DNA from: Dillenia suffruticosa | Taxonomy: Eukaryota > Streptophyta > Magnoliopsida > Dilleniales > Dilleniaceae | NCBI GenBank assembly: GCA_033439265.1 | Contig: JAVTVX010000024.1 | Location: forward strand, 992,001 to 1,056,000 | Reading direction: 5' to 3' | DNA length: 64,000 nucleotides | In this document: piece by piece, positions 49,896 through 53,739 of the stretch | How positions within the stretch are numbered: position 1 is the stretch's first letter | How the letters are laid out: each line of letters starts with the position of its first letter | Program-made: the position numbers and the translations under genes | Notes under the pieces: model-generated | Database searches by the model: none | What the model was told of the DNA's origin: nothing | What the model saw: the letters and a program-made list of their open reading frames with translations, nothing else

Positions 49896-50766
49896 TCATA
49901 CATCATCTCTTTCTTGTTCTTCTGCGAACCCTTGTCACTCTTCGCCGACGCGGTAGCAGAACCCCATCAGACGCCGCCATGGTACCTCTTTCTTCTTCTT
50001 TGGGTTTTCTTCCTCTTCTTCAAATTCATGTTCTTGGGGGTCTGATTTCCTGTTCTTTCTTCAGGTGAAGTACTCCAGAGAACCCGACAATCCCACCTAG
50101 TGTGAGCATCTCTTGCTCTCTCTCTCTCTCTCTCTCTCTCTGTCCATATGTTCCCTCGCTCTCTATCTTGCTTTGCTTTGATCTAATAAAGTTTTTTTGT
50201 TGATTTTTGTTAATGGGTGCAGCCTGCAAGGCCAGGGGTTCCGATCTTCGTGTTCATTTCAAGGTACTTTTGGAACGATAGTGTATAGCGTTCTGAGATC
50301 TTGTGTTGTTGTGCAGCCCTAGGGTTTGTTTGAACTCTGCATTGGAAAATGTTGAATACATATATACGTGTATACGTGAGTGTTGGAATATATCACTCAT
50401 GGTTAGATAGCCCTATGCTGGTTAATTTTGAGTGGTTTTTCATTTTTTGTAGTCGATGATAATAATCATAGGGTTTAAAATGCGAATTTCCTTTTCTATG
50501 ATGCTTTTATTACTTATCAGGGTCGAATGATTGCTGCCAAATTGTTCTTATTTTGTTTCCATTACATGATCCAATGTCATAGGTTGTTAACATATGTTGC
50601 ACCAACAAAACTAAAGCCAACCGGCCTCGTAACTTTTGATAGTGTAGAACTTCTATAACTTCTCTTGTTACCGTGTTTGTTTATAGTCAGATCTACTTGC
50701 CCCTTTTCTCTACCACAAACCATACATAGTGCAGCCTCAATAACTATTTTTTTTTTGTTCCAAGAA

Positions 50767-50907
50767 CCTGATGATAAAAGCAGGGGTCCATTTAAATTGT
50801 CTGATTGGGTCCTTCGTAAACTTCAGGGAGATCACTTGCATCATTATTGGGTGAACCGCTGTTATTCTTCTCTAGTGACTCAAGGTTCAGTAAATGATGG
50901 AACAACA
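50767..50907 (+). ncRNA. H/ACA snoRNA unit 1 in RPL17-2 intron 3
   Basis: Nearly identical to the unit at 11789 in stems and boxes: CCTGA/TCAGG, GGGGTCC...GGGTCCT, pocket strand CGTAAACT, H box AGATCA, TGAACC...GGTTCA, ACA at 50902-50904. It appears intact although the host gene cannot make uL22. Confidence 0.78.
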
Positions 50908-50937
50908 GAACCAACTTGTCTTATTTGTTACTTTTAA

Positions 50938-51074
50938 CCTGATGATAAAAGCAGGGGCCCATTTCTCTTGTGTTTGGGTCCTTCGTAGACTTCAGGGAGA
51001 TCAGTTGCATCATTATTGGGTGAACCTCTGTTCTGTTTTTGATAACTCAAGGTTCAGTAAATGATGGAACACAT
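50938..51074 (+). ncRNA. H/ACA snoRNA unit 2 in RPL17-2 intron 3
   Basis: Counterpart of the unit at 11961: CCTGA/TCAGG, upper stem GGGGCCC...GGGTCCT, H box AGATCA, second hairpin TGAACCT...AGGTTCA, ACA at 51069-51071. Both copies share the CGTAGACT right pocket strand, which differs from CGTAAACT in the other units. Confidence 0.76.
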
Positions 51075-51171
51075 ATATGTTTACCTCTATATTTCCTGCA
51101 CCCTTCTATTCCTTCTTAGAAAGTTAATTAGCATTTTTTCTTGTTCTAAAACTTGTTAATTCCTGGCTTAA

Positions 51172-51310
51172 CCTGATGATAAAAGCAGGGACCCATCTCC
51201 GTGGTGATTTTGTCCTCTGTAAACTTCATGGATATCAGATGCATCATTATTTGGCGAACCTATGTTGTTATTTTTGTGACTTAAGGTTCAGTAAATGATG
51301 GAGCGAACCA
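51172..51310 (+). ncRNA. H/ACA snoRNA unit 3 in RPL17-2 intron 3 (decayed)
   Basis: Counterpart of the unit at 12187. The lower stem is disrupted (TTCATGG in place of TTCAGG), the second stem starts GCGAACC, and the ACA box is lost (gagcgaacca). The H box ATATCA is retained. Probably non-functional. Confidence 0.55.
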
Positions 51311-51363
51311 GCAATGATTGGTCACCTCTCTACTGCATTGCCAAACATGTTGACTACTGACAA

Positions 51364-51498
51364 CCTGATGATAAAAGCAGGGATCTATTTCTTTTGTAAT
51401 TGCATCCTTCGTAAACTTCAGGAAGATCATATGCATCATTATTGGTTGAATCTCTGTATTTTTTAGTGACTAGAGGTTCAGTAAATGATGGAACAAGA
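51364..51498 (+). ncRNA. H/ACA snoRNA unit 4 in RPL17-2 intron 3
   Basis: Counterpart of the unit at 12412: CCTGATGATAAAAGC start, CGTAAACT pocket strand, TTCAGG, H box AGATCA, second hairpin TGAATC...GAGGTTCA, ACA at 51493-51495. Confidence 0.74.
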
Positions 51499-53739
51499 GG
51501 TCTAAATTATATTTTTGTTTCACTTTTATTTATTTGTTATTCCCTGCTGACAGTAGTATTTGAAAGGGCTATGCTTGTCACATGAATGATTAGATCCTTC
51601 TCTGCTGCGCCATAGTTTTGTTAAGCCTCTTTACCACTTGAAACTTTTGCATATTATTTTTAAATCATCTTTCAACTTTATTTCTAAATTTTATATTGAT
51701 GGTTGAAGCATGTGGATGTGATATAAATAGGGTTGGGATTTGGACTTTTAAGGTATCACCTAAGGCAGAGGTCATGTAATTATGTTGGGTTACTAAACTA
51801 ATTATGTTGGGGGTACTAAACTATGGGGTTGGAATTCACCCTTCCTATTTTTGTAGAATGTTAAATGCTCAATCTTTTGAATAACTTTTTGATTATGGCT
51901 ATTCAACAGTTAGCAGAATTGATTATCAGTATTTTGATATAATGTTTAGATTGATTGGCTCTTCTTGTAAGATAAAGTGAAATGTTTTGCACACCTATGC
52001 TATTAGTGAGAATCTTTATGTAGTGTGTTTTCTTTTTATGCCTGTAGCTAGTTTGCAAACTGTTTGGCTCTCTATTTTGATGTGGTTGTGTTTGGCTCTC
52101 TATTTTGATTTTACTGTTTTGATGTGGTCGTCTAGTGTTTTTAATGTTTATATGTTGTTTTAGTTTAACCTATATGTTCTTTCACAGAACACAAGGGAGA
52201 CAGCTCACGCAATAAGAAAATTGCCTTTGGCCAAAGCCAAGAGATATCTTGAGTATGTTTTGGCTCACAAGCAGGCCATTCCCTTCCGGCGCTTCTGTGG
52301 GGGTGTTGGACAAACTGCTCAAGCGAAGAACCATCATTCAAATGGGCAAGGACGTTGGCCTGTTAAGTCTGCAAAATTTATTCTGGATTTGCTCAAGAAT
52401 GCTGACAATGCTGGTGTATGTATTGTATGACATTGTCTAATTGCTGTTCTGGTTATGTCACTCTCAAATCTAACTTGATAGATTTCATCCTCCAGGTGAA
52501 AGGGTTGGACGTGGATTCACTTTTCATCTCACACATCCAAGTGAACCAGGCCCAGAAGCAAAGGCGTCGCACATATCGTGCTCATGGCCGAATCAACCGT
52601 ATGTTAACTTTATGGTTACATCACTAAGTTTATGTTCTTTTTTAATGCATTGTGTTTTGACAGAGGCATAATTCTCTAATTGCAGCCTACATGTCTTCAC
52701 CCTGCCATATTGAGTTGATTTTGTCCGAAAAGGAAGAGCCAGTTAAAGAGAGGTAATTAGCCCCACAAACTAGCATTAAAGAATTGCAGTTGCCATACAG
52801 AAACTAAATATGAAATGATGATGATGATTAATACCAAGTATTTCCTTTTTCCCTGCCTTACATTTATCTTTCTATGTCCTTGCAGGCCGAATCTCAGCTG
52901 GCCACCAGCAAACCCAGGAGGTCTTAAGTTGTCCGCAGTGGCACTGCTTCTTAGAGAGGGTGTGGTGGTAGAGAATCATAATTTAAGCAAGATTTTTGCA
53001 ATTCTGTCATTTTCCTATTTACCTATCATTGTCATTTTCCTATTTACCTCTCATCTTGGAAGACAGTTTTGTTGCAACTCAATATATCTGCGTTAGCTTT
53101 TGAATAGTTGAGTATAAAATCCCTGTACTGTTAAATCCCTCTGCTTCTTCCTTTTCACGAGTTGAATGAGATTCTTGAGATGGGTTCCTTTGGACACAAT
53201 TGTTGTTCTGTCCTGGATGATGTTCCATGTTGCAGTCCTTGTGGAATTTACAATTGATGGGTTCATACCCAGTGCTATGTGGTATTATGTATTTTGTGCC
53301 CCAGGGGTGTTTTAAAGACAAATAAGCTCTCATCTTGCGTCCACCTATGGTACTAAATTTACCAATCTTGAACCTTTAGTTCTGGTCTATCCGTTGTTAG
53401 GGCACATCTGCCAACGTTAGCATATCAGGACTCGTGGGTAGTTTTAAGCCTGTAACCAATTGCCTCTGCTTCGCGAGTGGCAAGAGAAAACAAAGGCGTA
53501 GAAAAGAGTAGGGAGGGCTACTACTCACAATGGTCTAAAAAGGTCAGTGGGTTAATTGTGTTGTTTTGAGTGAAGCTTCTTGTTTCTCGTCATCCACATC
53601 TCGTCCGGTAATACAAGAAGTAGTAACACTCTAAGTACAACAAACAGACAATTTCAGAACTTTAATTTCTTTCTTTTTTTTTGGGTGCTGTCAGAACTTG
53701 AATTTCTGATATTGCATAGGGTGAGGGAGGGCCAATTGT

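Follow-up and report, generated by a model that had tools for sequence, protein, structure and literature searches.

Small nucleolar RNAs (snoRNAs) can sit in pseudogenes that no longer have coding potential but retain an exon–intron structure (PMC2906512), gas5 has been described as a non-coding snoRNA host (PMC2653536), and snoRNA host exons that evolve neutrally have been reported (PMC11405852). Indeed, snoRNA hosts that derive from pseudogenes and are targeted by nonsense-mediated decay (NMD) are already described in mammals. In plants, the hosts of intronic snoRNAs mostly encode ribosomal or ribosome-biogenesis proteins (PMC4660826). In particular, 15 of the 31 intronic snoRNA loci of rice lie in ribosomal protein genes with a telo box and site II elements (PMC3022908), and in maize 70% of the genes that host novel intronic non-coding RNAs encode ribosomal proteins, with other non-coding RNAs coming from the untranslated regions (UTRs) of genes that carry a hypothetical or pseudogene annotation (PMC6172812). 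More generally, snoRNA families undergo turnover and include snoRNA pseudogenes (PMC11028025). Here we describe a 64,000-nucleotide stretch of the Dillenia suffruticosa contig JAVTVX010000024.1 (the window; all coordinates are window positions, and features lie on the + strand unless noted) that contains two copies of RPL17, the gene for cytosolic ribosomal protein uL22. Copy 1 (10818–13904) is intact and has seven exons, with five units of the H/ACA snoRNA snoR74 (A1–A5) in intron 3, and copy 2 (49979–52927) follows the same seven-exon plan and is broken. The reading that we favor, and consider probable though well short of certain, is that copy 2, which arose by duplication, is now a young and unprocessed RPL17 pseudogene that acts as a passive non-coding host of snoR74 RNAs.

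Copy 2 resembles the non-coding hosts of animals (gas5, the U17 host and the SNHGs) in that a useful open reading frame (ORF) is absent from its exons, its snoRNAs are intronic and its exons are predicted targets of NMD; the parallel with NMD-targeted mammalian hosts, which had been drawn in a first-pass annotation of this locus, is sound as a comparison (PMC2906512). Unlike those hosts, copy 2 belongs to a plant, is known here from sequence alone, and has exons that are 6% diverged and still recognizable as RPL17. To our knowledge, most protein-less snoRNA hosts of animals are old enough for every trace of the parent protein to have gone from their exons. With its recognizable exons and its seemingly recent loss of coding, copy 2 would make the transition from a coding to a non-coding host directly testable in a plant, and the intact sister copy inside the same 64 kb provides the control for that test; if copy 2 is merely a decaying pseudogene, then it is ordinary. 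With the clusters of snoRNAs found in the introns of plant ribosomal protein genes, copy 2 shares a promoter with a telo box and site II elements and the presence of several snoRNAs in one intron, but it differs from those hosts in having lost its protein. It is also like an unprocessed ribosomal protein pseudogene that follows a segmental duplication, with introns, a stop codon, a frameshift and a non-synonymous excess on one copy, but unlike an ordinary pseudogene of this kind its non-coding payload is largely intact. Among the literature matches listed, we recognized none on a plant RPL17 intron that contains snoR74, and none on a ribosomal protein pseudogene that serves as a snoRNA host in plants.

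Exon models were rebuilt for both RPL17 copies. That of copy 1 specifies an open uL22 of 174 amino acids, which matches Pfam Ribosomal_L22 with an E value of 1.6e-33. In copy 2, exon 1 (49979–49981) consists of the ATG only, and exon 2 (50065–50101) ends with an in-frame TAG at codon 13 (50098–50100), where the aligned model of copy 1 has AAA. Exon 3 (50223–50263) is followed by exon 4 (52188–52415), which carries the substitutions D50Y, R69Q, R76H and D104G together with a 3-bp loss near 52404–52406 that spans codons 100/101. Beyond exon 5 (52496–52598), a 1-bp loss at codon 160, near the end of exon 6 (52686–52752), shifts the frame of the C-terminus, such that exon 7 (52886–52927) is out of frame and the original stop codon is unread. 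All six introns retain GT..AG ends, including intron 3 (50264–52187), which houses the snoR74 cluster. The early stop, the in-frame codon loss, the late 1-bp deletion and the preserved splice sites are thus as the first-pass annotation had described them. The exons of copy 2 are without a functional ORF while the exon–intron structure is retained, and with its disabling lesions, its introns and the relaxed constraint on its protein, copy 2 qualifies as an unprocessed pseudogene.

A lone TAG could be an error of sequencing or assembly that creates a false pseudogene. We regard this explanation as scarcely credible for copy 2, which combines three or more distinct lesions with several radical changes at positions that are constant in the chains we compared, and whose divergence from copy 1 is plain (16.7% in the part of intron 3 outside the snoRNAs). 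Only a little less improbable is a rescue of the protein by alternative splicing. Joint skipping of exons 2 and 3 (78 nt) would drop the TAG in frame, the joined frame is open through the end of exon 7, and an N-terminally truncated uL22 would result; such a product would, however, lack 26 N-terminal residues, its C-terminus would still be destroyed by the 1-bp frameshift and conserved residues would be altered. We know of no uL22 isoform in which exons 2 and 3 are skipped. Skipping of exon 2 alone was considered as a rescue and discarded, as it shifts the frame.

Which copy the protein changes belong to was assessed against uL22 chains from a PDB search (best 60 of 67 matches), with four of five aligned chains used; the fifth, 8cgn (labelled L17-A), is more distant and was left out of the polarization. 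Across the four chains, residues 50, 69 and 76 are constant and residue 104 is D or E, and six changes are derived in copy 2 (K13*, D50Y, R69Q, R76H, D104G and P162A). The left-out chain has K at 13, R at 69 and E at 104, but it has Q at 50, A at 162, a residue other than R at 76 and residues other than E/S at 100/101, so that D50, R76, E100/S101 and P162 are constant only in the four closer chains and K13 and R69 in all five. Y114F is ambiguous (F in three of the four chains) and K173R is not polarizable. The asymmetry of non-synonymous changes towards copy 2 gives one-sided binomial P values of 0.008 (7:0) or 0.035 (7:1), where the 7 includes the unpolarized K173R.

Rfam detects nine snoR74 (RF01231) H/ACA units in the window, five in copy 1 and four in copy 2, all of them in intron 3. 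The family is one of four H/ACA families reported across land plants (PMC5122169). All nine units match along the whole model and score 75.7–103.5 bits against a gathering score of 44; the four in copy 2 span model positions 1–134 at 75.7–102.3 bits. The outer 5' stem of the units, CCUGA/UCAGG, begins before position 1 of the model, and its five pairs are all present in eight of the nine units. Alignment pairs A2 with B1, A3 with B2, A4 with B3 and A5 with B4, leaving A1 as an extra unit. Each unit was scored for the H box, the ACA, the 5' closing stem (five pairs), the 3' closing stem (seven pairs) and the pockets. The H box is found in all nine (as ANANNA in each of the four units of copy 2), and two of the nine depart from the family in having no ACA, leaving four of five with an ACA in copy 1 and three of four in copy 2. 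In B1 (50765–50907; 98.3 bits, partner A2 103.5 bits) the H box AGAUCA, the ACA, the closing stems and the pockets are all at consensus. B2 (50936–51074; 102.3 bits, partner A3 87.8 bits) has intact boxes and stems, and the 5'-pocket variant GUAGACU is common to B2 and A3. B3 (51170–51308; 75.7 bits, partner A4 79.9 bits) is decayed; it is the only unit in copy 2 without an ACA (its tail reads GAGCGAAC), it lacks one pair of the 5' stem and it has two changes in the 3' guide pocket. B4 (51362–51498; 91.6 bits, as for its partner A5), the last of the copy 2 units with an ACA, has intact boxes and stems and a single changed base in its 3' guide pocket (AUUGGUUG).

The units of copy 1 (starts at 11616, 11787, 11959, 12185 and 12410; span 11616–12547) are similarly damaged. 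A2 is intact in every scored feature and A5 has intact boxes and stems with one base changed at the end of its 5' pocket, whereas A1 has intact stems but no ACA, and the 3' closing stem retains six of seven pairs in A3 and four of seven in A4. Thus, three of the four units in copy 2 are kept as first annotated, when judged by the ACA, but because the array of the intact gene has also lost or damaged units, this pattern does not set the broken copy apart; with one unit without an ACA in each array, that of copy 2 is in no worse shape. Added up over the four pairs, the Rfam scores of the two copies are about the same (367.9 bits for copy 2 and 362.8 for copy 1); copy 1 leads in two pairs, copy 2 leads in one, and the remaining pair is tied. 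Minimum-energy folds give the expected two hairpins for B1, B2, B4, A2, A5 and the ACA-less A1 (for B1, B2 and B4, a 3' hairpin beside the 5' hairpin with CCUGA/UCAGG). The folds of A3 and A4 do not show the two expected hairpins, and B3 forms a 3' hairpin but lacks the one expected on the 5' side. Shuffle z-scores for fold energy range from +0.68 to −2.23 over the nine units and are too weak for ranking; those of B1–B4 (−0.91 to −2.11) are unexceptional. Among 30 consensus pairs none is changed on both sides in the nine units, an uninformative result, and the units thus gain no support from either fold energy or covariation. The pair probabilities of the 3' closing stem are low even in fully paired units (0.02 in A2), since a shifted register competes with it, and pair counts and boxes were therefore used instead. 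The 3' pocket of snoR74 is probably complementary to the A-loop of 25S rRNA, which would make the A-loop a putative target. The A-loop of Arabidopsis 25S rRNA has a pseudouridine site, in a report whose main text does not name snoR74 (PMC8351944). Against SNORA21, B2 (50937–51074) and A5 (12411–12547) show full-length but weak similarity, at 21.2 and 21.1 bits (E values of 0.32 and 0.37), far below the gathering score of 80. This could be due to chance or could hint at a target common to snoR74 and SNORA21.

The first-pass annotation had proposed that selection now acts on the intron RNA of copy 2, with decaying exons beside kept snoRNAs. Between the copies, the paired units differ at 36 of 549 sites (6.6%), the remaining DNA of intron 3 at 206 of 1234 (16.7%), the coding exons at 31 of 521 (6.0%) and, when taken together, the five introns other than intron 3 at 107 of 496 (21.6%). 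Relative to the remainder of intron 3, the units (P = 1.4e-9) and the exons (P = 2e-10) have both diverged more slowly. The slower rate of the units, anticipated in the annotation, holds for the array as a whole and fails for one of its pairs; the pairs differ at 3/141 (A2/B1), 8/137 (A3/B2), 17/136 (A4/B3) and 8/135 (A5/B4) sites, and for A4/B3 the rate is not below that of plain intron (12.5% versus 16.7%, P = 0.27). The anticipated contrast between exons and units is absent, the two being equally diverged (Fisher P = 0.71), and we attribute this to a coding lesion that is young relative to the duplication. For the RPL17 copies, synonymous divergence (dS) is 0.215 and non-synonymous divergence (dN) 0.0217, a ratio of 0.10, and this ratio, together with the low divergence of the exons relative to the intron, indicates that coding constraint operated for most of the time since duplication. 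Since copy 2 was long under constraint at the level of its protein, what is still intact in it says little about how selection has acted since the TAG arose.

The length of the relaxed phase was estimated with a Poisson model that assumed 398 non-synonymous sites, a neutral per-lineage divergence of 0.09–0.108 and a functional dN/dS of 0–0.06, with 6–8 changes in copy 2 and 0–1 in copy 1 as input. The medians place the relaxed phase at 13–22% of the period that has passed since the duplication; over all runs, the 95% ranges extend from 3 to 42%. A phase this short would mean that most of the conservation of the snoRNAs predates the break. In this time, a neutral sequence would be expected to have changed little (median ~1.7–2.0% per site), so that splice sites and boxes should be intact in any case, a point that speaks for copy 2 being a plain dying pseudogene, in which the locus is silent or makes no contribution and the intact features are leftovers. 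One of the four units and one further guide have, moreover, already been hit. We nevertheless consider it rather unlikely that copy 2 is nothing more than this, in view of its site II, telo-box and TATA motifs, the presence of all its splice sites and paired units that show no overall loss of Rfam score relative to the intact copy.

A further alternative is that purifying selection after the TAG holds the promoter, splicing, B1, B2 and B4 in place for a needed output of snoR74. Substitutions counted strictly inside the units and polarized against paralogous units and the Rfam consensus divide between copies 2 and 1 as 2:1 in B1, 2:6 in B2, 11:6 in B3 and 4:5 in B4, with one indel on each side (in copy 2, in B4). 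Over the three units with an ACA, 8 changes fall on copy 2 and 12 on copy 1, while the non-synonymous changes of the exons sit on copy 2. The 8 changes (9 with the indel) compare with ~17–19 expected if the units had been neutral since coding was lost; the probability of so few is 0.03–0.05 under neutrality and 0.19–0.26 under constraint, giving a Bayes factor of 3.3–5.1 in favor of constraint, a value that is biased because the three units were picked for having kept their ACA. When all four units are taken, 19 substitutions on copy 2 stand against 18 on copy 1, a relative-rate test that gives no signal either way. Inclusion of indels leads to the same conclusion (9 versus 12 for three units, 20 versus 19 for four). 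The 19 changes (20 with the indel) compare with ~24–27 expected under neutrality, with probabilities of 0.17–0.25 if neutral and 0.56 if constrained and a Bayes factor of just 1.3–1.7. The scores are likewise divided; the better-scoring member of A3/B2 is that of copy 2 (102.3 versus 87.8 bits), but copy 1 scores higher in two pairs (103.5 versus 98.3 and 79.9 versus 75.7 bits) and one pair is tied. B4 has its change in a guide pocket, B3 is decaying, the exons are conserved as well as the units, and nine units of one family amount to redundancy. Taken together, these comparisons offer a hint of continued constraint on the units after the loss of coding, and we think it unlikely that copy 2 is a host maintained by selection. 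Specific selection for its intron RNA is therefore possible but unproven, and is plausible rather than established, given a lesion of recent origin and exons no less conserved than the snoRNAs; what stands of the earlier interpretation is that uL22 coding has been lost and that the anatomy of a potentially working snoRNA host is complete. Viral contigs were searched for outgroup DNA and yielded no relative; a snoR74 pattern scan gave no matches, and in a uL22 protein search 17 stretches fit a peptide pattern, none of which was confirmed by tblastn.

The promoter motifs reported for copy 2 were recovered in a scan of the 350 bp before the ATG of each copy. Copy 2 has, within 49829–49894, three site II elements (TGGGCT at 49829 on the + strand and at 49845 and 49850 on the − strand), a telo box (AAACCCTA; 49869, − strand) and a TATAAA (49889), all inside 150 bp, whereas one site II element, one telo box and a TATAAA are found in copy 1. 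Ribosomal protein genes and snoRNA genes of plants typically combine a telo box with site II elements (PMC3022908).

These observations can be accommodated by the passive-host reading as follows. A block containing RPL17 and the adjoining SPC12 was duplicated, and for the greater part of the time that followed both RPL17 copies remained constrained at the protein level. Copy 2 then lost coding (through the TAG, the 3-bp loss, the frameshift and the radical substitutions), by our estimate in roughly the last 13–22% of the time since duplication. Its promoter motifs, splice sites and most of its units would be intact mainly because little time has elapsed since the break. Copy 2 is probably still transcribed by RNA polymerase II from the site II/telo-box promoter, and splicing would free its intron 3, from which snoR74 H/ACA RNAs would be trimmed to supplement the output of copy 1. 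Because the TAG in exon 2 lies upstream of five exon junctions, the spliced exons would be expected to be degraded by NMD.

Several points weigh against this reading. Transcription, splicing and snoRNA release from copy 2 are predictions from its nucleotide sequence. The promoter/5' UTR stretch differs at 19 of 113 aligned sites, which is the level of the intron; beyond the motifs it shows no special constraint, and the motifs may thus be mere survivors. The estimate of the relaxed phase hangs on 6–8 substitutions and on the assumed functional dN/dS of 0–0.06, and polarization covers only the unit changes and the amino-acid changes. Finally, non-coding divergence is uneven, at 9/80 sites in intron 4, 10/84 in intron 5, 29/117 in intron 2 and 35/83 in the poorly aligned intron 1, so that a single neutral rate is a simplification.

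A variant in which the two jobs of the host gene have been split between the duplicates, with copy 1 supplying the protein beside an eroding array and copy 2 supplying the snoRNAs, seems to us quite unlikely. Boxes and closing stems are all intact in two of the five units of copy 1 and in three of the four of copy 2, which also has three site II elements. If there had been such a split, copy 2 would be a newborn non-coding snoRNA host whose exons have not yet drifted.

The duplicated block comprises 10452–16140 and 49489–60535, two copies in direct orientation ~39 kb apart, with both RPL17 copies in the same orientation and insertions in the second. The part downstream of copy 2 (57742–60535) corresponds to 14534–16140 and contains the second copy of SPC12, which encodes a signal peptidase subunit (58045–58338; partner 14875–15168). 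The SPC12 reading frame is open in both block copies (97 amino acids; dS 0.18, dN 0.022), and its dS, set beside the 0.215 of RPL17, is consistent with a single duplication event. SPC12 survived in both block copies, whereas RPL17 died in one. Downstream of the second SPC12, at 58410–59164, there are about three copies of a ~250-bp tandem unit that are 86–90% alike, and the counterpart at 15236–15665 has about two shorter copies of the same unit (82% alike). Within the second block, a stretch of ~970 bp (55980–56946) ends in a 16-nt imperfect inverted repeat (AGGCCTGTTATGATAC and GTGTCATAACAGCCCT, 88% complementary) and has an interior packed with GAGCTC-rich and other repeats; it may be an inserted non-autonomous DNA transposon. 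Another insertion in this block, at ~53900–54900, resembles by eye the RNase H region of a decayed non-LTR retrotransposon.

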